Shown here: piece after piece, positions 6,659 to 59,283 of the stretch | Layout: the number at the start of each line of letters is the position of its first letter | Position numbering within the stretch: position 1 is the first letter of the stretch | NCBI GenBank assembly: GCA_040882465.1 | Contig: JBBEBG010000026.1 | Coordinates: forward strand, 108,518 to 172,517 | Origin: Gemmatimonadota bacterium | Lineage (GTDB): Bacteria > Gemmatimonadota > Gemmatimonadetes > Longimicrobiales > Gaopeijiaceae | Direction of reading: 5' to 3' | DNA: 64,000 nucleotides | Notes under the pieces: generated by a model | What the model saw: the letters and a program-made list of their open reading frames with translations, nothing else | Database searches by the model: none | What the model was told of the DNA's origin: nothing | Made by a program: the position numbers and the translations under genes

Positions 6659-7696
6659 ATGCCAGCTAGTGCCTCCACAACGGTTGCCGAGCCGCTCGAG
6701 TACACGCCGGAAATCGCGCGAGCGACCGCGGAGCTCTATTCGCGTTTGCGAGGAGTCATTCCCGAAGTCGAATGGCCTTTTCACGCGCCCTACATCCACC
6801 GGATCGAGCAGCTCAAGATAGAGCGGAACGCGGTCATCCTCGCGCACAACTACCAGACGACGGAGATCTTCCACGGGGTCGCGGACTATCGGGGTGACTC
6901 GCTCGGGCTGGCGCAGGAGGGGGCCAGGACCGACGCTGACGTGATCGTCCTCTGCGGCGTCCACTTCATGGCCGAGACCGCGAAGATCCTGAGCCCGGAA
7001 AAAACGGTGCTCATTCCGGACCTCCGCGCCGGCTGCTCGCTCGCCGAGTCCATCACCGGCGCGGACGTCCGCCGGATGCGGGCCCGGCACCCCGGCGCGC
7101 CCGTCGTGAGTTACGTGAACACATCGGCCGACGTGAAGGCCGAGAGCGATATCTGCTGCACTTCTTCGAACGCCGTGAAGGTCGTCGAATCCCTCGGGGC
7201 CAAAAAAGTCATCTTCCTCCCCGACGAATACCTGGCGAGTTACGTGGCCAGCCAGACGAAGGTCGAGATCATCCCGTGGGACGGTCGTTGTGAGGTACAC
7301 GAGCGCTTCACGGCGGACGAAGTCCGGAGATATCGGCGCGCCACGCCGGACCTCGTCGTTCTCGCGCACCCGGAGTGCCCGCCCGACGTCCTGGCCGAAG
7401 CCGATTACGTGGGCTCGACCTCGGGGATGGCCCGTTTCGTCCAGGAGAAGAAGCCGGTGCGGGTCGCGATGATCACGGAGTGCTCCATGAGCGACAACGT
7501 CGCGGCGGAGAACCCGGACGTCGAGTTCATCCGACCATGCAACCTTTGCCCGCACATGAAGCGGATCACCCTTCCCCGGATTCTCAGGTCCCTGGAGACC
7601 CTCGAGCACCGTGTGGAGGTGGACTCCGGAGTCGCCCAGCGCGCTCGCCGGGCCGTTGAAGCGATGCTGGCCGTCGGCCGGGGAAGCGGGGGATGA
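6659..7696 (+). CDS. nadA: Quinolinate synthase
   Basis: A 345-aa [4Fe-4S] enzyme that condenses iminoaspartate with dihydroxyacetone phosphate to quinolinate, the second step of de novo NAD synthesis in the cytoplasm. The three cluster cysteines are recognisable in RAGCSLAES (about residue 126), HPECPPDV (about 240) and [11 protein letters not shown] (near 300). Substrate-binding segments include [33 protein letters not shown] and [10 protein letters not shown]. Start: ATG 12 bp after the palindrome, with only a weak purine-rich SD. It overlaps nadB by ATGA. nadC is not present in the window, so the pathway is completed elsewhere. Confidence 0.97.
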
Positions 7697-46571: not shown

Positions 46572-47927
46572 ATGACCGAGGACAGCCGCCCTTCACGGCT
46601 CGAGCGATTTGGGCTGCATCGCCCCGAGTTACGCGCGTGGGCGATGTACGACTTCGCGAACTCGGCGGTCATGACGACCGTCGTCGCCGCCGTCTTTCCC
46701 CTGTACTTCCGAAGTGTCGTCGCGGCCGAGCTTCCGCTCGCCCTCTCGATCTTCGGCACGGCCACCTCCCTCGCAGTCATCTCGATCGGGGTCGTCTCCC
46801 CGGTGCTCGGCGCCATCGCGGACTTTTCTGCGATCAAGAAGCGGATGCTCGCCGCCCTCATGGCGATCGGGGTCCTCGCCGTGGCAGGCATGTTCTGGGT
46901 CCAGGAGGGCGACTGGGGGCTCGGGATCGCCCTCTTCATGCTCGCGAACGTCGGGCTGGCCGGGAGCTTCGTCTTCTACGACTCGCTCCTCCCCCACGTC
47001 GCCGAGAATCAAGAGATGGACCGCGTCTCCACCTCGGGTTTTGGCCTCGGGTACCTGGGGGGTGCGATCCTGCTGGGACTCAATCTGGCCTGGATTTTCG
47101 CCCCGGGTGCCTTCGGACTTCCCTCGGGCGAAGGACTCTCCCCGTCGCAGGCGACGCTTCCGGTGCGGCTCGCCCTACTTTCCGCGGCCGTGTGGTGGGT
47201 GATTTTTGCGATCCCCCTATTCCGGCGGGTGCCCGAGCCTCCCCGGCGGCTCGAGGCAGACGAGAAGGCGCGCACCAATCCGATCGGGGCGGCGCTCATT
47301 CGCCTCGGAGAGACCTTCAGGGAGCTGAGGAGCTACAAGCAGGCCTTCCTCATGCTCCTCGCCTTCCTCATATACAGCGACGGGATTGGAACGATCATCC
47401 GGATGGCCGCGATCTACGGCGGCGAGCTCGGGATCGGAACGCAGTCCCTGATCGCGGCGATCCTGATCACGCAGATCGTCGGTGTCCCCTTCGCTTTTTT
47501 GTTCGGAGCGATCGCGGGACGGATCGGCGCCAAACCGGCCGTGCTGATCGCCCTCGTCGTTTACATGGGAATCACGCTCGTCGGGTTCCTGATGACGACC
47601 GCGACCCACTTTCTCGCGCTCGCGGTGATGGTGGGGATGGTCCAGGGGGGGGCCCAGGCACTGTCGCGCTCCCTCTTCGCCCGGCTCATCCCGCGCCACA
47701 AGTCGGGTGAGTTTTTTGGGTTCTTCGGCGTGATGGACCGGTTCTCGGGGAGCATCGGGACACTCGTGATGGCCGGGATCGCCGCGATCACCGGTGAGGC
47801 ACGCTTCGGAATCCTCGCGATCATCCTCTTTTTCATCGTCGGCGCCTTCCTCCTGACCCGAGTGGACGTCGAGGCCGGGGAAGAGGCTGCGCGAGAAGCG
47901 GAGCGGGCCGCGGGGGTCACCATCTAA
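46572..47927 (+). CDS. UMF1-family MFS transporter
   Basis: A 451-aa MFS permease related to yeast Atg22. RAWAMYDFANSAVMTTVVAAVFPLYFRS is a strong family signature at the N-terminus, followed by eleven or so hydrophobic segments with charged loops (FFGFFGVMDRFSGSIGTLVMAGI between TM9 and TM10). It is likely an amino-acid or small-solute exporter in the inner membrane; the substrate is unknown. Start ATG 46572. Confidence 0.9.
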   Translation: MTEDSRPSRLERFGLHRPELRAWAMYDFANSAVMTTVVAAVFPLYFRSVVAAELPLALSIFGTATSLAVISIGVVSPVLGAIADFSAIKKRMLAALMAIGVLAVAGMFWVQEGDWGLGIALFMLANVGLAGSFVFYDSLLPHVAENQEMDRVSTSGFGLGYLGGAILLGLNLAWIFAPGAFGLPSGEGLSPSQATLPVRLALLSAAVWWVIFAIPLFRRVPEPPRRLEADEKARTNPIGAALIRLGETFRELRSYKQAFLMLLAFLIYSDGIGTIIRMAAIYGGELGIGTQSLIAAILITQIVGVPFAFLFGAIAGRIGAKPAVLIALVVYMGITLVGFLMTTATHFLALAVMVGMVQGGAQALSRSLFARLIPRHKSGEFFGFFGVMDRFSGSIGTLVMAGIAAITGEARFGILAIILFFIVGAFLLTRVDVEAGEEAAREAERAAGVTI

Positions 47928-47975: not shown

Positions 47976-50513
47976 TCAATCGCCCTTCAAGACCTCCGCC
48001 GGGCGGATGCGCGCGGCACGAAGGGCCGGAAGCAAAAAAGCGACCAGCGTCACCGTCATCACCGCCATCACCGCCCCGATGAGGATCGCGGGATCGTCGG
48101 CGCGAACTTGATGGAACCGGTTCGTGACGACACGGCCTCCAACATAGGCCGCCGCCAACCCCAGGATGATTCCGGCGACGGATAGGACCCAGGCCTGGGA
48201 GAGCAGGATGGCCACGACCTTCCCCGGGGTCGCCCCGAGGGCGATCATCGTGGCGAGTTCCCTCCGTCGCTGCGCCGTCGAGTGCGCGACGACGCCGAAG
48301 ATTCCGATCGCCGCGAGTGCCAGGGAAACGGCGGCAAAAAGGCTCATGAGGACGAGCCCGAGCCGGTGACGCCACATGGCGTCGGAGAGTAACTCCGAGA
48401 GCGGGATGATATCGACCCGGATCGCGGGATCTACCTGAGCCAGTGCGGCCCGAATCGTCGGAATAGCATCCGTCGGATCCGCCAGCGTCGTCTCGATGAT
48501 CCAGCCCCGCGCGGCGAGAGCGGTCGGCACGTACCACACGGGTGTGGGCACGTCCCTGAGCGAGCGGTATTGGATGTTTTCAACCACGCCGACAATCTCC
48601 TGCAGATTGTCGAAGTCCACGACGGGCGCTCCGAAGCCGAATAGGACTCCGACGGGATCACGGCCGGCGAGGTAAGACTCCGCGAACGCCCGGTTGACCA
48701 CCACCCGCGGCAGGCCGAAATCCGCCGGACCCGGTCGAAATTCACCAGTCTCCCGATCGATCGTTCCCGACTCCGGCTGGCCGGAGGTGGGGTCGGTCCT
48801 CGTTACCCTAGGCGGGGGTCGGTCCTCTTCCGTGAGCATGCGGCCGGCGAGCAAGCGAGTGCCCATCGCCTCGAAGAATCCCGGGCTCACCGCGGTTCGA
48901 ATGGCCACGTTCTGACGGTTCACATCGTAGTCGTCCCCGGGAACCGCCACGTACCAGCCTGAATCGTAGTACGGACGGAGCGGAAGGGCGCTCGACGCGC
49001 CCAGGCGGGAGACGACGTTCAAGGAGCGGAGGCGCTCCGGCGCGGCGGCCATCCAATTCTGCACGGCCGCCTGGTCGTCCGGAAGCATCGGATCCACCAG
49101 CAGGCGACCCTCCGTCGCAAACCCGAGATCCATGGACGACAGGTTCAGATAGCTCCGCACGAGCCAGCCCGCGCCGGCCACGAGTGTGATGGCGAGCGAA
49201 ATCTCCGCGACGACCAGCGCATTCATGATCCGCCGCGATCCCTGACCACCGGACGCGGAGCGACCGCTTTCACTGAGAAGCCCGCGGAGGTCCGGAGCCG
49301 ACAACCGAAGGGCCGGAAGGAGTCCAACGAGGACAGTGGCGCCGGTGAGCACCGCGACGCAGAAGGCGAGGACGCGCCAATCGAGGGGAACCTGGTCCAT
49401 GCGGGGGAGATCGGACCCTCCCCACGCGACCAGGATGCGAACTCCCACGAAGGCCAGCAGAAGTCCCACGATCGTCCCGGCGGAGGCGAGGAGTAAGGAT
49501 TCGCCGAGGAACCGCCGCATGATCCTGGCCCGGTCCGATCCCAGGGCCAGGCGCACTCCCATCTCCGTGGCCTGCCGCTGGCCCTTCGCGAGGAGCAACG
49601 TCGCGACGTTCACACTTCCGAGGACCAGGAGCACCAGCGCTCCGCCGAGGACCACGAGCAGAATCGGCGCGAGGTCGCCGACCAGCAGCTCGTTGAGAGG
49701 GAGGATTGCATAGACCCGATCCGCGAAACTCGGAAATCGCTCCTCCAATCCGAACGCGATGGCGGCCAGCTCCGCCTCGATCTGTTCCTGGGACGCGCCC
49801 GGATTCGCGCGAAGAAATCCGTTGTAGGCAATGAGAACGGCGTCGGGCAAGGCGAACGGCAGCCACAGGTCGGCGCCCAGGGGAAATTCAAGCTCGGGTG
49901 GGGCGACCCCTAGCACCGTGACGGATCGTCCCCTCAGCCGAATCGTCCGGTCCACGATCGTCGGATCCCGAGCGAAGAGCTCGCTCCAGAGTCCGTCCGA
50001 CAGGATCGCGACGGACGGGGCGACGGTGACCATCACCGTCCGGGATTCCCCGCCCGGGCCGGCCACCGTCTGTTCGCGAACTTCCGGAATGTGGTCCTCG
50101 GGGACGAACGCACGTCCGGCGCCCATCGGCGCCGCGAAGAGATCGAAGAAGCCCTCGCTCACGTGCCCGATCATGACGTCGCGGGGAGCGCCGCCCTCCG
50201 GAATGACGGCCGTTCGGCTCACCCCGTAGGCGACTGCATGCCGTACCGTTCGCGCCTGGTCGTTGATCGCGTGGACGTGGGCACCGGAAACGCGGTCGCG
50301 ACCCGTGGTATAACGGCCATCCACCAGCCGTGACCCCAGAAAGTACAGGTCGTCGGCATCGGGAAAGGGGAGCGGCCGAAGGAGGGTCGCATTGACCGTA
50401 CTGAAGATCGCCGTGGTCGCGCCGATGCCCACGGCGAGAGTCGCCACGGCGGCCAGGGTGAACCCCGGTCGCCTGGCCAACCGACGCATCGTGATCAGGA
50501 CGTCTCGCCACAT
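47976..50513 (-). CDS. ADOP-type (MacB-like) ABC transporter permease
   Basis: An 845-aa permease with two MacB/FtsX halves in one chain. First: DVLITMRRLARRPGFTLAAVATLAVGIGATTAIFSTVNATLLRPLPFP, the hallmark of duplicated orphan permeases of Acidobacteria/Gemmatimonadota type, a periplasmic MacB_PCD domain, then membrane segments (LVVLGGALVLLVLGSVNVATLLLAKGQRQATEMGVRLALG). Second: MNALVVAEISLAITLVAGAGWLVRSYLNLSSMDLGF and the C-terminal FAAVSLALAAIGIFGVVAHSTAQRRRELATMIALGATPG. No ATPase gene is adjacent. It lies next to the lasso cluster and could export a peptide, but it is separated by the GNAT gene and is divergent, so a link is only speculative. Confidence 0.9.
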   Translation of the reverse strand: MWRDVLITMRRLARRPGFTLAAVATLAVGIGATTAIFSTVNATLLRPLPFPDADDLYFLGSRLVDGRYTTGRDRVSGAHVHAINDQARTVRHAVAYGVSRTAVIPEGGAPRDVMIGHVSEGFFDLFAAPMGAGRAFVPEDHIPEVREQTVAGPGGESRTVMVTVAPSVAILSDGLWSELFARDPTIVDRTIRLRGRSVTVLGVAPPELEFPLGADLWLPFALPDAVLIAYNGFLRANPGASQEQIEAELAAIAFGLEERFPSFADRVYAILPLNELLVGDLAPILLVVLGGALVLLVLGSVNVATLLLAKGQRQATEMGVRLALGSDRARIMRRFLGESLLLASAGTIVGLLLAFVGVRILVAWGGSDLPRMDQVPLDWRVLAFCVAVLTGATVLVGLLPALRLSAPDLRGLLSESGRSASGGQGSRRIMNALVVAEISLAITLVAGAGWLVRSYLNLSSMDLGFATEGRLLVDPMLPDDQAAVQNWMAAAPERLRSLNVVSRLGASSALPLRPYYDSGWYVAVPGDDYDVNRQNVAIRTAVSPGFFEAMGTRLLAGRMLTEEDRPPPRVTRTDPTSGQPESGTIDRETGEFRPGPADFGLPRVVVNRAFAESYLAGRDPVGVLFGFGAPVVDFDNLQEIVGVVENIQYRSLRDVPTPVWYVPTALAARGWIIETTLADPTDAIPTIRAALAQVDPAIRVDIIPLSELLSDAMWRHRLGLVLMSLFAAVSLALAAIGIFGVVAHSTAQRRRELATMIALGATPGKVVAILLSQAWVLSVAGIILGLAAAYVGGRVVTNRFHQVRADDPAILIGAVMAVMTVTLVAFLLPALRAARIRPAEVLKGD

Positions 50514-50733: not shown

Positions 50734-51792
50734 ATGCCATCTCTGGAGATCACGAAACACGAGCTGACCCGCCTGCCCGCTGACGTCGCGACGGCCCTCG
50801 GCCTCCTTCGGCGAAGGTACCTTGCGGAGCACTGGCCGGAGCGGTCGCTGCCGGGCGTCGAGGCCTCCGCCATTCGATTTGAAAGGCTCTGGTGCCACGG
50901 CGCGGGCGCCGTCTGGATTGCGCATCATGCCGAGTGGGGTCCGGTCGCGTACCACCTGCTGGTCCCGAGGGGCAAGTCGGCATCCGCCGCCTGTGTCCTA
51001 TGCGTGCTGCCCGAGGCCCGTGGGCGCGGCATCGCACGAGCACTCCTCCGTGAAGGACATTCATTCTCGGCCGCGCACGGCATTGCCGAGATGGAGGCCG
51101 AGTCGAGCTCGCTCGTCCCGGAAGGAGACATGCTCCTGAAACGAATGGGAGCGGTCTCCCAGGGACGAGCCCACGTCTATGAAGGCCTCATCTCCGCGGT
51201 ACGGGACGAGGTGGTCCGGGAGAGGAGTCGCCTCGACGAAACGCTCGGCGTTCGCCTCGAGATTCACCGGAAGGGCCATCCGGAGGACGATCTCGCGCAG
51301 CTGGTTCATCTGAAGGGATTCATATCGACCACATACGGTCACACTCCCCACGACCTATCCGCCGCGACCGCCGCAGTTCGACGATCAGACGCTTTGCTCG
51401 CCGAGCGGGGAGGTAGCCGCCTCCTGGTCTTGGCCCGGGAACAGGAGTCGGGCCTCGTCGTCGGTTGCGCCGAGACGGTTTGGTGGACCGATGACCCGCT
51501 CGCCGTCTATACGTGGAACTTGGCCGTCCTCGAGCGGTGTCGCGGCCGGTCCCTCGCAGGAGCGCTGAACGCCGCGCTCCTTCTCGAGGTTCCGAGAACC
51601 TTCCCCGCGGTCGAGTCCATTCGACTCCGGCTGCATGAATCGGCCCATGGGCTGCAGGCCAGATGCCGAAGGCTGGGATTCAACCTGCACCACACCGAAG
51701 GGTTGTGGACCGTGCCCGAGGGGAGCCTCGCGGATTACCTGCATGGACACCGGAATCCGAACGACGACGATCGGGGGAGCCATGTGGGGTGA
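50734..51792 (+). CDS. Tandem GNAT-family N-acetyltransferase
   Basis: A 352-aa acetyltransferase with two GNAT folds. The first has ACVLCVLPEARGRGIARALLREG (R/Q-x-x-G-x-G/A motif A), the second NLAVLERCRGRSLAGALNAALLLEV. Both halves keep the acetyl-CoA pyrophosphate loop pattern. It is transcribed toward the lasso cyclase, with only 17 bp between the stops, and away from the ADOP permease. Acetylated lasso peptides with cluster-encoded GNAT enzymes are known (albusnodin), and the precursor's core has two lysines next to the ring. An alternative is an unrelated tailoring or resistance acetyltransferase. Confidence 0.85.
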   Translation: MPSLEITKHELTRLPADVATALGLLRRRYLAEHWPERSLPGVEASAIRFERLWCHGAGAVWIAHHAEWGPVAYHLLVPRGKSASAACVLCVLPEARGRGIARALLREGHSFSAAHGIAEMEAESSSLVPEGDMLLKRMGAVSQGRAHVYEGLISAVRDEVVRERSRLDETLGVRLEIHRKGHPEDDLAQLVHLKGFISTTYGHTPHDLSAATAAVRRSDALLAERGGSRLLVLAREQESGLVVGCAETVWWTDDPLAVYTWNLAVLERCRGRSLAGALNAALLLEVPRTFPAVESIRLRLHESAHGLQARCRRLGFNLHHTEGLWTVPEGSLADYLHGHRNPNDDDRGSHVG

Positions 51793-51809
51793 GGCCCAAT
51801 TCTGCGCCG

Positions 51810-53633
51810 TCACGTTCGCGAGCCGGGGTCCCATTTTCCGGATCTTACGGCGAGCCATGTTTCGAGGCTCAGGAGCGGGAGCAGGGGCCACATCGGGGTC
51901 GGCACTCCCAGTCTCGCGGCATCCACCAGATCTCGAAACTTCTCTCCGTCGACGATCCCGTAGTCCGCGAGCACGGGCTCCTTCAGCATCCTGTCAAGCG
52001 CGGCCTTCCGGGCGCTCAGCGCCCAGATGATCCCTCGATCCGCGGAATCGTTGGTCATGCGGTGACGGACCACCGGCGGGAGTCGGTCGTGCATGGCATG
52101 CCGCAGAAGCCCCTTCGGCTCACCACCGCCGAAATCGTCCTCGGAGGGCAAGGAAAGCACGAACTCCACGAGTGGCTGGTATAGGAACGGATGTCGGCGT
52201 TCCAGATAGTCCGTGTACGGCTGCACCTCCAAGGCGGACCGCATCGAAACGAGTGATCGCCTGATGTGATCGCCCCGGTGGCCCACTTTCCTCCAGCTCC
52301 CCCATCCTCGCATGCGTGCGGACATGACGTTTCGCGCACGCTCGCGAAGGCCTGGCGCAATCCAATCCGGAATTGACTTCGGCGAGCGATGGGCCCCGAG
52401 GATGGGAGCCAACCCGCTGGACCACAGATGCCGCCAGAACGACGTGTCCGTTTGGCGAGCGATGCCGTAAGCGGTCCGGAGCGCGGTCGGGAGTCTCCCT
52501 GAGACGATCTGATCGGCGATTCGCTTTCGAGAAACTCCCAGGTACTGGTCCGCGCCGTACCCGCCGAGAATCACCTCGCCACCACCCGCCCGCACCAGCT
52601 CCCGGGCCGCCCGATCGCTTGCCCAAAAGGCGTAGTGATACCATGGTTCGTCCGACTTCGGCGGAGGATGTCCGTCGGCTTGCCACGGACGGAAGTTGAG
52701 GAACTCCCGGTGCTTCAAGCCGCACCTCTGCACGACACCCTCGAAGTACGGGCGCTGATCCTCTCGATCCAACTCGTCCACGAGGGTATACCCGCCGCCC
52801 AGTCGGATCGGGGTCTTGCCGCACTCGAAGAGGTGCTGCGCGGTGACCACGATGGATGAAGAATCGAGCCCGCCCGAAACTTCCGCCCAGACTCCCTCCC
52901 CCCTGCCGAGGTGTGCCAGCACCGCTCGGTCGAACAGCGCCCGGAACGTCTCGATCGCTTCCGCTTGCCCCACGGTCTTCCGGGGACGGACGGACCACAG
53001 GCTACGAAATACCCTCTCCGAGGAGGCACCGTCGCGGTATTGAAGAATGAATCCGGGCTTTATCGGAGAGATGCCCTTCCAGATCGTTCGGGTTGGCTCG
53101 GGCGGAAAGCTGGACAGCAGATAGTCGGCCACGTAGTCCCGATCGATCCTATCGTCCGTGCGAAGCGTCTCTAGGTGGGACGAAACGGCGATCCCCCACT
53201 CGCCCTCGGATACGAAGATTCGATTGAGCCCAAGCCAGTCCCGTGCCGCCCAGAGCGTCCCTGACTCGGCGTCCCACAGTACGAACGCGAAGGATCCGGA
53301 GAGTTCCGCGAACGACTCCGGGCCCTCGGACGCGAAAAGCCGAAGGGCCAGCTCGAGGTCCACACCCCCCCCGGAGGAGTCCGGAGCGTCGGTGCGCTTC
53401 GCGAGCTCCTCCCGGTTGTCGAGGGACGCTTGTCCCACACAAGAGAGATGTCGGAATTCCGCCGTGGCCACCCGGCGACCGGTCGGCCCACCGGCGGTGG
53501 CTAGAAGAAAGGTGGATCGGCGAAGGACGGTCGGCTCGTACCCGCAGATCTGCCCCAGCCGGCCCGTGAGCGCTCGAAACCTCTCCTCGTGCGCCGTCCC
53601 GAGACCGGCCACTGCTACGAAGCTGTCGGTCAC
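51810..53633 (-). CDS. Lasso peptide isopeptide-bond-forming cyclase (asparagine-synthetase-like)
   Basis: A 607-aa ATP-dependent macrolactam synthetase of the LasC/McjC class. The glutamine-amidotransferase-like N-terminus lacks the Cys nucleophile (GTG start gives MTDSFVAVAGLG), as in lasso cyclases, and keeps RDWLGLNRIF and FAFVLWDAESGTLWAARD. The synthetase half has the PP-loop SGGLDSSSIVVTAQHLF and EVILGGYGADQYLG. Predicted reaction: adenylation of Glu8 of the precursor core and closure onto Gly1. GTG 53633 overlaps the B2 stop (GTGA). In context with B1, B2 and the precursor the lasso assignment is preferred to ordinary asparagine synthetase. Confidence 0.9.
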   Translation of the reverse strand: MTDSFVAVAGLGTAHEERFRALTGRLGQICGYEPTVLRRSTFLLATAGGPTGRRVATAEFRHLSCVGQASLDNREELAKRTDAPDSSGGGVDLELALRLFASEGPESFAELSGSFAFVLWDAESGTLWAARDWLGLNRIFVSEGEWGIAVSSHLETLRTDDRIDRDYVADYLLSSFPPEPTRTIWKGISPIKPGFILQYRDGASSERVFRSLWSVRPRKTVGQAEAIETFRALFDRAVLAHLGRGEGVWAEVSGGLDSSSIVVTAQHLFECGKTPIRLGGGYTLVDELDREDQRPYFEGVVQRCGLKHREFLNFRPWQADGHPPPKSDEPWYHYAFWASDRAARELVRAGGGEVILGGYGADQYLGVSRKRIADQIVSGRLPTALRTAYGIARQTDTSFWRHLWSSGLAPILGAHRSPKSIPDWIAPGLRERARNVMSARMRGWGSWRKVGHRGDHIRRSLVSMRSALEVQPYTDYLERRHPFLYQPLVEFVLSLPSEDDFGGGEPKGLLRHAMHDRLPPVVRHRMTNDSADRGIIWALSARKAALDRMLKEPVLADYGIVDGEKFRDLVDAARLGVPTPMWPLLPLLSLETWLAVRSGKWDPGSRT

Positions 53634-54040
53634 AAATCCAGGTTGAAGGTTGGAAGCCCGGTCGCCCACACATCTCCCGTGTTCAACCGCTCACCGGCGA
53701 CTTCGACCCATGCATGAGCGTAAAAGGGAAACGGTTGCACGCCAATCTTGATCTCGGCGGGCACCCGCATCCATCGCAACATCAGACCCATGGACAACGA
53801 CCGTTCCAGGCAGCCGGCTCTCCCGGGAAACAGGGCCGCGGCACTCGAAATCGACTCCTCGATGGCCCGCACTCTCTCATCGTGAGCCGAAGCGGCATCG
53901 CCAGAGCTGGAACGGACTTTGGCCAGTTTTCGATAGACGCCGAGCGTCCTACCGAACCCCAACGTCTTGAGGCTCAGGCGAAAGAAGAGGATCGTGAGAC
54001 CCGACGTGAGGATTCGGAGGCTCCGTCGAAGGTTAGGCAC
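53630..54040 (-). CDS. Lasso peptide B2 protein (transglutaminase-like leader protease)
   Basis: A 136-aa protease that removes the leader from the lasso precursor. The Cys-His-Asp triad fits the family: GCLERSLSMGLMLRWMRVPAEIKIGV, split as GCLERSL (Cys), AHAWVEVAGERL (His) and TGDVW (Asp). The N-terminal LTIL-type hydrophobic segment (LRRSLRILTSGLTILFFRLSLK) is also usual. GTG start; it overlaps the B1 stop by 8 bp (GTGCCTAA) and the cyclase start by 4 bp, so the three are translationally coupled. Confidence 0.92.
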   Translation of the reverse strand: MPNLRRSLRILTSGLTILFFRLSLKTLGFGRTLGVYRKLAKVRSSSGDAASAHDERVRAIEESISSAAALFPGRAGCLERSLSMGLMLRWMRVPAEIKIGVQPFPFYAHAWVEVAGERLNTGDVWATGLPTFNLDL

Positions 54041-54317
54041 GGGACCGAACGAGCTGGTTGTCCACGAGGTGCCTGAGGAACTTCAGGATGTCCTCTTCCA
54101 GCTGCTCACGGCCGATCTGGTAGTCCGCCGTGAGTTCCTCAAGGAGCTCCGACGAGTCCGCTTCCGAAGGACGATCGGCGGCCTGGATCGCCGCCCAAAC
54201 CCGCGCCCCCACCGCGTTTAGTCCGAAGTACTCCCCCCGAGTCGAGTGCAGCAGGACCGCGCGCCCCTCCTCCAACACACAGTACACGCCCGGGGCCGGC
54301 CTCAGGGAGCCGATCAT
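54033..54317 (-). CDS. Lasso peptide B1 / PqqD-like precursor-recognition protein
   Basis: A 94-aa PqqD-family RRE protein that binds the leader and delivers it to B2 and C. The winged-helix-like core is PGVYCVLEEGRAVLLHSTRGEYFGLNAVGARVWAAIQ followed by a helical ELLEELTADYQIGREQLEEDILKFLRHLVDNQLV, described here by parts. ATG 54317 is chosen; the open frame extends upstream only through non-conserved sequence. It is the first gene of a B1-B2-C operon with the TTGACA promoter 77 bp upstream. Confidence 0.92.
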   Translation of the reverse strand: MIGSLRPAPGVYCVLEEGRAVLLHSTRGEYFGLNAVGARVWAAIQAADRPSEADSSELLEELTADYQIGREQLEEDILKFLRHLVDNQLVRSRA

Positions 54318-54685
54318 GTCCGTGCAGCGTGGGCCCTGCGGAGGAATGGGATGCCGATGCCTTGCTCGGAGGACACGTTGGATGGAGGAGGCAACGGTAT
54401 TTCGTGCCCGAAGTCGTGTCAAGAAAGCGAGAAACGACGCGCCGGGCGAAGGCCGAAGGTTCTCGGACTCGACGGCCGGCCAAACGCCGCCCCCTACCTT
54501 AGCGTCCTGTCCGGCGAAGTCCGCAATGATCGGGCGCCAGTCCTTCACGGGCAGACCCATCTAACCCTGGTTCCGGAGAGCGGATCGTAACAAGACCCTG
54601 GACCTTTGCCTACCAGAAGATTTAGCTTGAATCCTTTCGGGTGAGTTTGACCCACGAACCTGACGAGACTCCGGGGGACCCTGGA
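54318..54685. other. Divergent promoter region of the lasso operon and TPR gene
   Basis: A 368-bp gap between lasB1 (minus) and the TPR gene (plus). It contains the lasB promoter at 54394-54422 and no credible second precursor. GTG 54641 is an alternative start for the TPR gene. Confidence 0.6.
54394..54422 (-). promoter_or_regulatory. Candidate sigma70 promoter of the lasB1-B2-C operon
   Basis: Minus strand: TTGACA, exactly 17 bp, TACCGT. Perfect -35 and a weak -10; initiation would be near 54387, with a 70-nt leader to the B1 ATG. Confidence 0.65.
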
Positions 54686-55999
54686 ATGAAGATGTCCGAG
54701 ACGACCGTGGCTGGCACGGCCACGAAGCGACGTTGGAGAATACCCCCACCGCTCCTTCAGGACGGGGGGGCTCCGGGCCCCGAGGGACTGACGATCCTGA
54801 GCGAGTTCCGGAGCGAGTTGGGCGCGGTCCTGTGGAAATCGCTCCGCACAGTCGTCCTGTGGGCCGAAGCGGATCCCGCTTCGCGGCGGAATCTGTTCGA
54901 CGAAAGGGCCGCGGACCGACGCCAGTTGGAAATTCTTGCGGTCGCGCCGGACGACGAGCGCGCGCCGAGGGCCGCGCTCGAGGATCTTCTCTGCGTACTG
55001 GCGCAGCCCGAGCGCGCCGACCCCGAGTTTGTCGGGGTGGTGTGTTCGCGAATCGCTGCGTGGGCCGAGGGGATGGGGGCCCGTAGGACCCAACTCGAGT
55101 TTCAACAGGCAGCGGCGCTTTCCTGCCCGGCCAATCCCTGGTTCGCTCTGGCGGTGGGAAACGGGTCCCGAGATCTCGCACAGTATTCCCGCGCCGAGGC
55201 CTGGTACTTCCGCGCGGTCGGGCTCGCCCGTCAGGGGAGCGACTGGGAAGCATATGTGAAGGCTTACCTGAATAACGGAATCATGATGTTCCGGCGCGGC
55301 GCCCTTCCGGCCGCCCGCCGGAGTTACCTGAAGGCGTTGCGTCGCTCGAGGCGCCAAGGGCTTCGTGAGGGCGAAGCGAAGGCACTGCACGACCTCTTCG
55401 TTCTCGAGGCCCGGGGCACGAATTGGAATCGGGCCCACTCCTGGGCGCAGTTGGCTCTGGAGGCTCACGGCCCCGGCCATGCACAATTGCCTCGGCTCGC
55501 CCACGATATCGCATACTTTTGGTTGGAGCAGGGTGTTTGTGCCCACGCCCTGTGCGTGTTCATGGAGACGCTCGGTCAGGTCAATGCGGGAGAGCGACCG
55601 ACGGTCCTGGGGTCACTCGCGCGCGCGGCTGCCGGGAACCGCGACCTGGCCGCCTACCGCTGGGCGAGGCAGGAGTTGCTGCGCTACGAGCCGGGACCCG
55701 GAATGGCCGAGGCGTGGGTGGATATGGCCCGGGCGGCGCTCGCGTTGAGCCACCGAGACGAGGCCCTGGAGGCCGCGCACCTCGCCGAAACCGTTGCTCG
55801 GTCGCGGCGGGAGGGCCAGATGCGCTTCCTCGCGGAGTCCGTCATGAACGAGATCGAGGGAGAGCGGAGGGCGGCCGCCGAACGCCCCGCCCCCGAAATG
55901 CCGGCTTTCCACCTCGGCACGAGCGATGAGCTCGCCCGGAAGCTGATCAGAACGCTCCAGCTCGCGCCCGCCCGGCAATCGGTCGCTGCAGGAGCCTGA
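54686..55999 (+). CDS. TPR-type helical-repeat protein inside the lasso cluster
   Basis: A 437-aa protein of helix pairs, e.g. AQYSRAEAWYFRAVGLARQGSDWEAYVKAYLNNGIMMFRRGALPAARRSYLKALRRSRRQGLREGEAKALHDL, summarised as TPR-like repeats over residues about 150-400. There is no signal peptide. The N-terminus (ILSEFRSELGAVLWKSLRTVVLWAEADPASRRNLF) is unlike known TPR caps. It is transcribed opposite to the A and B1-B2-C genes between them and ends at a bidirectional terminator. It may be a scaffold or regulatory partner of the lasso system. ATG 54686 has GGGGGA upstream. Confidence 0.65.
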   Translation: MKMSETTVAGTATKRRWRIPPPLLQDGGAPGPEGLTILSEFRSELGAVLWKSLRTVVLWAEADPASRRNLFDERAADRRQLEILAVAPDDERAPRAALEDLLCVLAQPERADPEFVGVVCSRIAAWAEGMGARRTQLEFQQAAALSCPANPWFALAVGNGSRDLAQYSRAEAWYFRAVGLARQGSDWEAYVKAYLNNGIMMFRRGALPAARRSYLKALRRSRRQGLREGEAKALHDLFVLEARGTNWNRAHSWAQLALEAHGPGHAQLPRLAHDIAYFWLEQGVCAHALCVFMETLGQVNAGERPTVLGSLARAAAGNRDLAAYRWARQELLRYEPGPGMAEAWVDMARAALALSHRDEALEAAHLAETVARSRREGQMRFLAESVMNEIEGERRAAAERPAPEMPAFHLGTSDELARKLIRTLQLAPARQSVAAGA

Positions 56000-56013
56000 G
56001 GCCTTTAAGTGTG

Positions 56014-56049
56014 AGAGGAGGCCAGCCTATTGCTGGGCTGGCCTCCTCT
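56014..56049. terminator. Bidirectional terminator between TPR gene and lasso precursor
   Basis: A 14-bp perfect stem (AGAGGAGGCCAGCC / GGCTGGCCTCCTCT) with an 8-nt loop between two convergent genes (stops at 55999 and 56074). A short TTT follows on the plus strand. It can end both transcripts. Confidence 0.75.
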
Positions 56050-56073
56050 TTCCTCCCAGTCAGCGAAATGGCG

Positions 56074-56250
56074 TCAACCACCGGATCCCAAGTATCCGGC
56101 AATCGCCTTCTTCTCGGCGAAGGATCCGTCATCACCCATTGTCCGCTCGACCGCGTCGCCGAAGCTCACGAGTCTGGGCGGCTCGTACGACAGTGCCGGA
56201 ATCTCAGCGTCCAGCGGGCGGGTCGACTTTTCCTGGAATCCCTCGATCAT
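56074..56250 (-). CDS. Lasso peptide precursor
   Basis: A 58-aa precursor. The start is ATG 56250 with GGAGGTG 5 nt upstream. Leader residues 22-38 fit the lasso consensus Y-x2-P-x-L-x3-G-x5-T-x: Y22, P25, L27, G31, T37 (SYEPPRLVSFGDAVERTM). The core then begins at Gly39. Core positions: ring GDDGSFAE (Gly1 to Glu8, an 8-residue macrolactam), followed by Lys9, Lys10, and a tail AIAGYLGSGG, 20 residues in total. The B1, B2 and C genes are 1.8 kb away across a convergent TPR gene. The expected mass and threading need mass spectrometry. Confidence 0.88.
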   Translation of the reverse strand: MIEGFQEKSTRPLDAEIPALSYEPPRLVSFGDAVERTMGDDGSFAEKKAIAGYLGSGG

Positions 56251-56341
56251 GCTCACCTCCGAATGGAAGAAGCCACCGAAACTGGGGTAGGTTGATGGCT
56301 GACGAACGACGACACACATATGGAATGTTGATCCGGAAGCC

Positions 56342-56383
56342 GGTCCGGACCCACCCCGATTCCGTTAGAATCATGACTGATTC
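56342..56383. promoter_or_regulatory. Palindromes between lasso precursor and AraC-type gene
   Basis: Two inverted repeats: GGTCCGGACC (56342-56351, perfect) and GAATCA-TGAC-TGATTC (56368-56383, perfect 6-bp arms). They lie in the divergent region between the precursor (start 56250) and the AraC-type regulator (start 56393), so they could be its autoregulatory and precursor operators. Confidence 0.45.
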
Positions 56384-56392
56384 CACCGATTT

Positions 56393-57211
56393 ATGAACAC
56401 GGCCCCCCGCCCCCTCTTCCTCCTCCACCATGACCGAGTGCTCCTCGAGCGCCTCGCGCGCGCGGCGCACTCCCGATTCAGGCTCTCCCCCGTGGAGAGC
56501 TGGGACTCCCTTCGTGCAGGTGTCGCCGAGGCTCCCCCGGCCGCCCTCATCCTGGTCGACCCCTTCTTCGGTCAGACGAATGGTCATGGGCCGGCCCCCC
56601 AATTGCACGACCTTCTGACCTCCTTTCCCTCCTCGACCGTGATCGCGGCGATGGACTCCTCGCCCGCGAGGTACCGGGACATCTGGCTCCTGGGGGAATG
56701 GGGGATCGCAGAGATCCTTCAGACGGAAGAAGACCGGAGTCAGCTCGCCCTGACCCGCCGATTGCTCCAGGCGCGTGCGCAACCGCTCCGAAAGCTCCTC
56801 TCCCACGAGTCCGGGATCCCCTTCACGGGTCGGGCCCGGGCCCTCATGGATGCCGCCGTCGAGACGGTCATGACCGGGGGCCATCCTAAGCACCTGGCGC
56901 GCTCCCTGGGGTTTTCGCCATCCACACTGCTCCGCTGGTGCGAGCGTTCCCAGCTCCCCAGCCCGAGACGACTTCTGCTCTGGCTAAGGGTTCTTTTTGC
57001 CTCGGCGCTCCTCGACGATCCAGGCCATACGGTGTTCAGCGTGGGACTCGCGTGCGGCTATTCCGGCGATCAGGCGCTCCGGCGCGCGATCCACTCCGTC
57101 CTTCCCCACACCCCGACCCGGCTTCGGGAGCTCGGAGCCTTTGAGACTGCCTCAGCGGCCTTCTTTCGGGAGCTCCAGGGCCTTCGGGATGACGGGGCCG
57201 AGAAGAGATAG
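56393..57211 (+). CDS. Receiver-like/AraC-type transcriptional regulator
   Basis: A 272-aa regulator. The N-terminal 120 residues have receiver-like topology, with ILVDPFFGQ placing Asp56 at the phosphoacceptor position, but no invariant DD or K was identified with confidence. The C-terminal 110 residues are an AraC-type double HTH (LARSLGFSPSTLLRWCERSQLPSPRRLLLWLRVLFASALLDD, then VFSVGLACGYSGDQALRRAIHSVLP), the second helix-turn-helix being clear. It is divergent from the lasso precursor and 6 bp upstream of the histidine kinase gene, so it probably forms a two-component pair with it and controls the cluster. Confidence 0.78.
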   Translation: MNTAPRPLFLLHHDRVLLERLARAAHSRFRLSPVESWDSLRAGVAEAPPAALILVDPFFGQTNGHGPAPQLHDLLTSFPSSTVIAAMDSSPARYRDIWLLGEWGIAEILQTEEDRSQLALTRRLLQARAQPLRKLLSHESGIPFTGRARALMDAAVETVMTGGHPKHLARSLGFSPSTLLRWCERSQLPSPRRLLLWLRVLFASALLDDPGHTVFSVGLACGYSGDQALRRAIHSVLPHTPTRLRELGAFETASAAFFRELQGLRDDGAEKR

Positions 57212-57217
57212 GCAAGG

Positions 57218-58390
57218 ATGAGGCCAATCGAGGCGCAGGGCGCACCGGGATCGGCGGGGATGAACCGTGACGAGCGGCTCCACCGGCTCGGCCGGGTGAC
57301 CGGTGAGCTTCTCCACGATCTGGCCGGCTCGCTCGCCGTCCTCTCCGGAAGAGTGTCCCTGGCGCGCGCCGAGGCCAGTCTGGGTCGACTGGCCACGGAC
57401 GAGCTCGCCCGGATCGGCGCGGACGCCGATGAGCTCCGGGCGATGGTATTGGACGTTCTCGGAGAGGTCCGGGGCGTTCGCACCCCGGCGGAGGTCACCT
57501 TCCCGGTTCGTTCGACATTGGACGGCGTCGTAAACCGATGGCTCATTGGAGCACCCCAGGTCTCCGTTTCTTTACGGTCCTCCCTTCCCGCGAACGCCGA
57601 GATCTCGGGACCCCGCACCTTTTTCGTGCGCGCTCTCGGCAATCTTCTCCGCAACGCCGCGCGCCACGCCCATGGGGAGATCCGGATCGCGGCGATGCCG
57701 GTGGGCGGGGGAGACTGGGTCGAGATCGAAGTGGAGGACGATGGAGACGGCGTTCCCGAAGACCTTCGGAGCCTCATCTTCGAGCCTTTTCTTACCGGAA
57801 CGGAGCTCGGAACCGGACTGGGCCTCTCCTTCGCCCGGTGGGGGATCGAGCGCCTCGGCGGCTCGCTCGAGCTGAACGCCGCGAAGTCGCGTCTGGGCGG
57901 GGCGTCCTTCCGCGTGTCGCTCCCTCTTTCCACCATCGGCGCGCGCGCGCGCGGCCCGGCGTCGGCGGCGCCGGACCGTCCGACCCAGGGTCCCGCGCCC
58001 CTGAGGGGATTCCGGATCGCGGTCGTAGACGACGATGAAGCGGTGCGGACCACCTTCACCCGACTCCTCGAACGCTCCGGGGCGGAGACGGAGGGGATGG
58101 ATCCGACGCGCTGGGACTCGTTGGAGGCGGGCATGGACGCCCTTGCCGCCTTCGCCCCGAACGTGATCCTCCTCGACCTCACCCTGGGACCGTATTCGGG
58201 GCCCGACCTGGCCCGCATCATGCGGGAACGTGCTTCCCGGCTCTTCCAACGGGTGATTTATTTCACTGGCGGCGCCGATCCGGGCCCCATGGACCGTCCG
58301 ACCGTGAGCAAGCTCCTTCCCTGGGAAGTGATCTTGGACCGTCTCCGTCGCGTGGCCCTCGCCGCGGAAGGGCGCGATCGTCGCGGTTGA
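57218..58390 (+). CDS. Hybrid sensor histidine kinase with C-terminal receiver
   Basis: A 390-aa soluble-looking kinase with no clear membrane segment. H33 in LLHDLAGSLAVLSG is the candidate phospho-His. N-box GNLLRNAARHAHGEI (N142, N146), G1 DDGDGVPEDL, G2 GTGLGLSFARWGIE. A Pro-rich linker leads to a receiver (FRIAVVDDDEAVRTTF, Asp320 in VILLDLTLG). It starts 6 bp after the AraC-type gene; together they look like a regulatory pair for the lasso cluster. The input domain is short (about 30 residues), so the signal may come from another protein. Confidence 0.88.
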   Translation: MRPIEAQGAPGSAGMNRDERLHRLGRVTGELLHDLAGSLAVLSGRVSLARAEASLGRLATDELARIGADADELRAMVLDVLGEVRGVRTPAEVTFPVRSTLDGVVNRWLIGAPQVSVSLRSSLPANAEISGPRTFFVRALGNLLRNAARHAHGEIRIAAMPVGGGDWVEIEVEDDGDGVPEDLRSLIFEPFLTGTELGTGLGLSFARWGIERLGGSLELNAAKSRLGGASFRVSLPLSTIGARARGPASAAPDRPTQGPAPLRGFRIAVVDDDEAVRTTFTRLLERSGAETEGMDPTRWDSLEAGMDALAAFAPNVILLDLTLGPYSGPDLARIMRERASRLFQRVIYFTGGADPGPMDRPTVSKLLPWEVILDRLRRVALAAEGRDRRG

Positions 58391-58464: not shown

Positions 58465-59283
58465 TTGGATCCCATCGTCCACAACATCGACCCGTTCCTC
58501 CTTCGCTTGGGCGACGGATTCGGGATCCGGTGGTACTCCATCCCGTACATGCTCGGGATGCTCTTTGCCTATCTCTCCCTCCTGAAGGCCGCACGGGAGA
58601 AAAAGATCGCGGGGCTCACCCCCGAAATCTCGGAGTCGTTCGTCCTAGCGGCGATCCTCGCCGCGCTCCTCGGCGCGCGTTTTTTTCACGTCTTTGTCTT
58701 CGAGTACGACCGGTACGGCCTCGATCCGATGGCATGGATCGCCGTGTGGCGCGGGGGACTGGCCTTCCACGGGGGGCTGGCGGGGATTCTCCTCACCGTG
58801 TTCTGGTTCTCCCACAAGCGTGGCATCTCCGCCTACGATCTCACCGACCGGCTGGCCGCACCGGTCGCCGTGGCTCTCGCGCTCGGCCGGATCGCCAACT
58901 TCATCAACGCCGAGATGTACGGGACTCCCTACGACGGTCCGTTTTGCGTGGATTATTCGCAGAACCAGTACATGGCTCGTCCGCCCGAGGGGTGCCGGCA
59001 TCCGACGCAGCTCTACGAATCGGCAAAGAACTTCGCGCTCGCCGGCTTTCTCTTCACGATCCGCGAACGACTTCGGCCGCGCCCCGGTGTCCTCACCTGG
59101 AGCTTCATCGCGCTGTACGGCTGGATCCGATTCTGTCTGATGTACGTCCGCGAAGAGGAGCGGGTCTGGGGAGATTTCACCCTGTCTCAAATCTTCTCCG
59201 GAGGGATGGGCATTCTGGGAACCGCTATGCTCGTGGCGGTCCTGCTCGCCCCCTCCCCCAAATCAGCGAGGAAGTCCCGTTGA
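58465..59283 (+). CDS. lgt: Prolipoprotein diacylglyceryl transferase
   Basis: A 272-aa inner-membrane enzyme attaching diacylglycerol to the lipobox Cys of prolipoproteins, about seven membrane segments. The signature ALGRIANFINAEMYGTPYDGPFC and the HGG-type GGLAFHGGLAGILL are present, as are IRWYSIPYMLGML and HPTQLYES. TTG start at 58465. It overlaps ettA by TTGA. Several lipoproteins in this window (cytochrome, amidase, SnoaL-like, 153-aa protein) are its likely substrates. Confidence 0.96.
   Translation: MDPIVHNIDPFLLRLGDGFGIRWYSIPYMLGMLFAYLSLLKAAREKKIAGLTPEISESFVLAAILAALLGARFFHVFVFEYDRYGLDPMAWIAVWRGGLAFHGGLAGILLTVFWFSHKRGISAYDLTDRLAAPVAVALALGRIANFINAEMYGTPYDGPFCVDYSQNQYMARPPEGCRHPTQLYESAKNFALAGFLFTIRERLRPRPGVLTWSFIALYGWIRFCLMYVREEERVWGDFTLSQIFSGGMGILGTAMLVAVLLAPSPKSARKSR

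Follow-up and report, generated by a model that had tools for sequence, protein, structure and literature searches.

The 64-kb window analyzed here, by which we mean the whole stretch of DNA under study, very probably carries a gene fusion, as judged from its sequence, that joins a lasso-peptide precursor to the conserved C-terminal tail of a lipopeptide resident in a regulatory module. The precursor gene occupies the slot between a TPR gene and a receiver-AraC gene, its last seven residues (GYLGSGG) fit the heptapeptide pattern of the peptides that relatives encode at this place, and the upstream repeat has been kept. The peptide of the window has no signal peptide and no lipobox, and carries a lasso leader instead. 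Because of this replacement, we regard it as a fusion and not as a plain member of the module. The fusion is known from one genome; a search with the precursor across 154 genomes of the order yielded no second case, the best other match having an E value of 0.005. We know of no lasso precursor that is fused, within the regulatory module of a different peptide family, to that family's conserved end, and none was found in the literature searched.

The precursor is a protein of 58 amino acids encoded on the minus strand at 56074 to 56250 (codons from 56250 down to 56077, stop codon at 56076-56074). It consists of the leader MIEGFQEKSTRPLDAEIPALSYEPPRLVSFGDAVERTM (56250-56137) and the 20-residue core GDDGSFAEKKAIAGYLGSGG, within which the ring GDDGSFAE spans 56136-56113 and the C-terminal heptapeptide GYLGSGG spans 56097-56077, all on the minus strand. 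A GGAGGT Shine-Dalgarno sequence precedes the gene, and the product has threonine at position -2 as well as Gly1 and Glu8 in its core. A sequence-only reading of this DNA had proposed such a precursor, with a lasso leader and a Gly1...Glu8 core. The proposal was borne out by the NF033521 model (lasso_leader_L3), which scored 21.6 against a cut-off of 19, and by a search for short ORFs with the strict pattern Y..P.L...G...T.[GASC], in which the precursor was the only one in the 64-kb window. We also built a leader-and-ring HMM from 13 lasso precursors whose clusters, found in f2 and f3 genomes, have the cyclases closest to C; these precursors share the leader pattern Y.PP....G.AV..T and the ring GxxGxxxE. 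This HMM matched the same ORF only (E value of 6e-6, the next being 1.5), and its alignment stops at the ring residue Glu8. The gene, whose last residues are AGYLGSGG, ends 77 nt from the stop codon of the TPR gene. A promoter and terminator scan of 54.0-56.45 kb found none; by eye, a GC-rich palindrome lies near 56014-56050.

Three overlapping genes encode the putative processing enzymes. B1 (54033 to 54317, minus strand) is a PqqD-like RRE protein, which scored 54.1 bits with PF05402 (cut-off 23.4), indicating a PqqD domain. Its start at 54317 is probable, and the frame is open for another 80 codons upstream of it, up to 54560 (54318-54560, minus strand), in the divergent region between B1 and TPR. 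B2 (53630 to 54040, minus strand) is a transglutaminase-like leader peptidase with Cys77, His109, and Asp123; it scored 86.8 bits with the NCBIfam lasso B2 model NF033537 (cut-off 33) and 75.9 with PF13471. C (51810 to 53633, minus strand) is an asparagine synthetase–like putative lasso macrolactam cyclase with PF00733 and GATase_7 matches above the cut-off; it has the ATP motif SGGLDS and no N-terminal (glutaminase) cysteine. Its start codon is the GTG at 53633, which shares GTGA with the stop codon of B2. The overlaps B1/B2 and B2/C, and the Cys-His-Asp residues of B2, are as the sequence-only reading had described them, and the three genes form one minus-strand operon.

The comparison with lasso families that the same reading had suggested gave a mixed result. 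B2 was well above its threshold, whereas B1 reached 45 bits on the lasso-specific model NF033536 (cut-off 80), and C reached 138 bits on NF033535 (cut-off 525), its best NCBIfam match. These B1 and cyclase models carry strict "exception" cut-offs (80 and 525), and the cyclases of related clusters with obvious adjacent precursors also remained below the latter, with scores of 170-223. C was closest to the cyclases of f2 and f3 lasso clusters (331 bits, 38% identity), while such proteins of its own family scored below 80 bits. A single-protein search of genome contigs with C as the query returned no relatives. That the lasso biosynthetic genes are real is, in our judgment, hardly in doubt. Elsewhere in the same genome, on contig 1, a second pair of PqqD-like and lasso B2–like genes (L035:9326-10192; 80 bits on NF033537) adjoins ABC transporter genes. 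This locus, which has neither a precursor with the strict pattern nor a cyclase match, was set aside.

Lasso clusters as such are already known, and those nearest to the window have a split B protein and belong to two other families of the same order (L041-L043, L048, L049, L055, L057, and L154). They share with the window the B1-B2-C order with overlaps, the leader Y.PP....G.AV..T, and the ring GxxGxxxE, and their cyclases are 34-38% identical to C. In these clusters, the precursor directly follows C, whereas in the window it lies beyond the TPR gene and ends in the lipopeptide tail. A further difference is that inspection of the neighboring genes in the window revealed neither a LasD-type ABC transporter nor an isopeptidase, in agreement with the sequence-only reading. 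The nearest membrane genes, which encode an MFS protein (46572-47927) and an FtsX/MacB-type permease (47976-50513) and belong to the inserted stretch, are export candidates only. Three of the nearest clusters have two or three tandem precursors after C (L041:11983-12455, L043:481-1042, and L049:11833-12004), with rings of the GxxGxxxE type or close to it and with tails of which LINFR is an example; to our knowledge, no known product matches them.

The genes flanking the precursor belong to a different system. The TPR protein (54641 to 55999, plus strand, with an alternative start ATG at 54686) has 40-67% identical copies beside AraC genes in relatives. The AraC protein (56393 to 57211, plus strand; PF12833) is 62-79% identical among the copies of its family, with ACGYSGDQALRRA invariant. 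Because its N-terminal half has a predicted receiver fold in which Asp56 is invariant, it is probably a response regulator. It is followed by a conserved neighbor, a soluble hybrid histidine kinase with a C-terminal receiver domain (57218 to 58390, plus strand; PF02518 and PF00072), and by lgt, encoding prolipoprotein diacylglyceryl transferase (58465 to 59283, plus strand; PF01790, 188.9 bits), which shares family synteny with the module. An operator-like direct repeat, GATTCCGT-N13-GATTCC, lies between the precursor and AraC genes at 56358 to 56384. This repeat (GATTCCGTTAGAATCATGACTGATTCC), upstream of AraC, is conserved in relatives; none is expected by chance in the window, and its own genome holds a single occurrence.

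The sequence-only reading had counted the TPR, AraC, and histidine kinase genes among the partners of the lasso genes. This view had to be abandoned, as the three genes and lgt recur jointly in many relatives without lasso genes of this kind nearby. Judged by this distribution, TPR, AraC, and histidine kinase form a resident module that is conserved in Gemmatimonadota and separate from the lasso genes. Likewise, the "split architecture" described earlier is correct as to gene order, with the TPR gene located between B1 and the precursor and convergent to the latter, but does not amount to a divided lasso cluster: the precursor gene occupies the slot of an older module, which accounts for its distance from B1, and B1-B2-C lie upstream of the TPR gene.

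Among the nearest named records, the carriers of the same regulator are MAGs, nearly all labeled Gemmatimonadetes or Gemmatimonadales. One record is labeled Gammaproteobacteria, and its gene layout is that of G055, a genome assigned to the window's own family by genome search. In G055, homologs of the genes at 37-46.5 kb of the window directly adjoin the TPR gene. In the window, the two are separated by 8.1 kb, which contains the MFS protein, the FtsX/MacB-type permease, a GNAT gene, and C-B2-B1, while the corresponding distance in other relatives is 3-5 kb. The stretch at 46.5-54.6 kb is atypical of the family.

In 13 relatives of the same family, the gap between the TPR and AraC genes encodes a small peptide with a signal peptide and a lipobox, both judged from hydrophobicity and the lipobox pattern of the sequence. 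This peptide is encoded on the strand opposite to TPR and AraC, that is, in the same slot and on the same strand as the precursor of the window. Its C terminus follows the pattern G-[YFH]-[IL]-[GD]-[SP]-x-x-stop, the individual ends being CGYLGSGC (twice), GGFLDSGD, EGYIGSDT, DGYIGSDT, CGYIGSDT, GGFLGSGG (twice), GGFLGSGS, GGYIGSGS, RGYIGSGG, GGYIGPNS, and GGHIGSDG. The family is absent from Pfam and NCBIfam. In genomes of another family of the order (f3), the slot peptides have looser ends, such as LGSGG, VGSGS, and IGTGT. These genomes (L135-L153, for example, L136, L146, and L150) hold many TPR copies, often with at least 10 matches listed per genome, and each copy usually has as neighbors a receiver-AraC gene and the gene for a small lipopeptide with an xGSGx end. 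By sequence, these TPR/peptide pairs are an expanded, undescribed family. In L201, L202, and L205, a second TPR-AraC pair adjoins lgt; the two genes of this pair are almost contiguous, and no slot peptide lies between them. The genomes of these loci hold a complete module as well.

We compared the tail of the precursor with those of the relatives by means of a scoring matrix, trained on the relatives only and with the window left out. The precursor ranked 1 of 989 ORF ends in the window, and over 18,101 ORF ends, only native family members scored equally high. Comparison of the last seven codons between the relatives and the window gave 21 identical, 42 synonymous, and 28 nonsynonymous positions; the tail has therefore been kept as a peptide and not as DNA. 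Across the whole genome, the precursor is the only place with the tail pattern, so that no second, lipidated copy is visible. These results bear on the possibility that the locus is an ordinary lasso cluster, with a GYLGSGG end and a position between TPR and AraC that are coincidental and unrelated to the lipopeptides. Lasso tails are variable, and glycine and serine are common in them. However, not a single unrelated end among the approximately 18,000 equals the precursor on the tail matrix, and the slot, strand, spacing, and operator agree too, which makes a coincidence very unlikely. That the lasso locus was wrongly joined to the TPR module during assembly is hardly credible. The source genome (3.53 Mb, completeness 99.56%) does consist of 41 contigs and has an estimated contamination of 4.55%, but the window is interior to a single 373-kb contig with family synteny on either side of the lasso cassette, and the fused parts share one reading frame within a 174-nt ORF that has a good Shine-Dalgarno sequence.

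One further locus, L037 of genome G099, has a TPR gene beside a lasso cluster and was considered as a second fusion. It was rejected, as it encodes its own tail-bearing lipopeptide and a separate, tail-less lasso-like precursor; the adjacency is further discounted by the similar locus L036, which has no TPR gene. The L037 lipopeptide (7319-7666, plus strand) is of the same family, adjoins the TPR gene, and bears the tail motif twice (GTFGSGH...GTFGSGH-stop), less than 4 kb from the unrelated lasso cluster with its own precursor. For the fusion in the window, the simplest history would be that a lasso cassette arrived beside the module and that the 5′ part of its precursor gene fused to the 3′ end of the gene for the resident peptide.

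Following established lasso biochemistry, B1 would bind the leader, B2 would cleave after Met38, and C would activate Glu8 and close the ring on Gly1. The predicted product has an 8-residue ring and a 12-residue tail, of which the last seven residues would be the free heptapeptide of the module. The lasso would present the same free C terminus on a compact scaffold, and in it the module would have its peptide signal in threaded instead of lipidated form. The fusion has no Sec signal like that of its relatives, and no exporter is evident. With less certainty, the TPR protein may bind the C-terminal tail in a Rap-Phr–like manner, which would alter how phosphate flows through the kinase and the response regulator of the AraC type; the latter may bind the repeat that lies between the divergent gene pair and control both genes.

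The comparison with Rap-Phr is based on structure and gene context. The TPR protein is predicted to be an all-helical superhelix (pLDDT 86.8), and its best structural matches include the Rap-type structures RapH-Spo0F, RapI, RapF-ComA, pLS20 Rap, and NprR alongside LGN and other TPR proteins. RapH was matched with a Z score of 20.3 over 319 residues and LGN with a higher one of 22.5, so the similarity to Rap is not specific. A sequence-profile search against the PDB returned generic TPR proteins only (kinesin light chain and designed TPR proteins), and Pfam and NCBIfam scans gave no Rap model on the protein. As no sequence membership in Rap/RRNPP was found, we claim only that the module may work like Rap-Phr. 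Rap-Phr and PlcR-PapR receptors bind the processed C-terminal peptide. Like these RRNPP systems of Firmicutes, the module has a predicted TPR superhelix that lacks a DNA-binding domain (as Rap does), an adjoining gene for a small secreted peptide that is conserved at its short C-terminal end, and a response regulator partner. It differs in its Gram-negative phylum, convergent gene order, and the lipobox on the native peptide, and the window differs further in having a lasso leader in place of the signal peptide. The PapR heptapeptide is mentioned in a published account (PMC6568020).

Taken as one explanation, the fusion, lasso processing, and recognition of the tail by the TPR protein, which would steer the kinase/AraC circuit, seem to us somewhat more probable than not on sequence and analogy. 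That the TPR protein recognizes the tail, which would then act as a signal, is a proposal drawn from analogy, and we give it a little less than even weight. With greater reserve, we suggest that a Rap-Phr–like signaling family of Gemmatimonadota, made up of TPR protein, lipopeptide, receiver-AraC regulator, and kinase, may have had its signal rebuilt as a lasso in this lineage.

The product might instead be a weapon that mimics the lipopeptide tail of relatives and jams their TPR receptor, with the producer protected by the GNAT acetyltransferase (50734 to 51792, plus strand; PF13508 and PF00583) through acetylation of Lys9/Lys10. The GNAT gene adjoins lasC, the core contains two lysines, and lysine acetylation has been reported as self-resistance for the lasso peptides triculamin and lariocidin (PMC13352647). 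The clusters of albusnodin, triculamin, and lariocidin likewise combine a GNAT gene adjoining the cyclase gene with lysines in the core, and albusnodin-type models gave weak matches below their cut-offs (precursor, 15.1 versus 30; C, 115 versus 300). In the window, however, the GNAT gene and lasC are convergent, and the former lies outside the operon, with its own orientation and transcription unit. It was not found near the module in relatives, and position alone marks it as the candidate partner that the sequence-only reading proposed; by analogy the enzyme could tailor Lys9/Lys10 or protect the producer. Moreover, the slot that the precursor gene occupies is the producer's own, as is the operator, the cognate TPR, AraC, and kinase genes are beside it, and the genome shows no separate native lipopeptide. 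A self signal fits these features better, and we consider a weapon unlikely. It is also improbable that the C terminus, carried over by the fusion, serves as a tag for processing, sorting, or stability, with the lasso having another role and the TPR protein handling export or folding. The tail is short, rich in glycine and serine, and without an assigned function, and the f3 versions are looser; yet it is kept at the protein level across the family and is always found beside the TPR protein and response regulator.

We favor the reading of the product as a lasso-borne signal of the resident module over a weapon or a tag. The module itself, composed of TPR protein, lipopeptide, and AraC/histidine kinase, appears undescribed. 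Literature searches found no published account of this TPR/AraC family; they also found no publications on lasso signaling in Gemmatimonadetes. We know of no described peptide signaling in the phylum Gemmatimonadota. The role of most native lasso peptides is an open question, and here it is directly testable, since a candidate receptor, operator, and readout lie within 4 kb. If the proposal is true, gene fusion is one way in which a lasso peptide can arise, and the locus would exemplify the natural grafting of an epitope onto the lasso fold. It would also indicate that TPR regulators are paired with a family of peptides not described so far.
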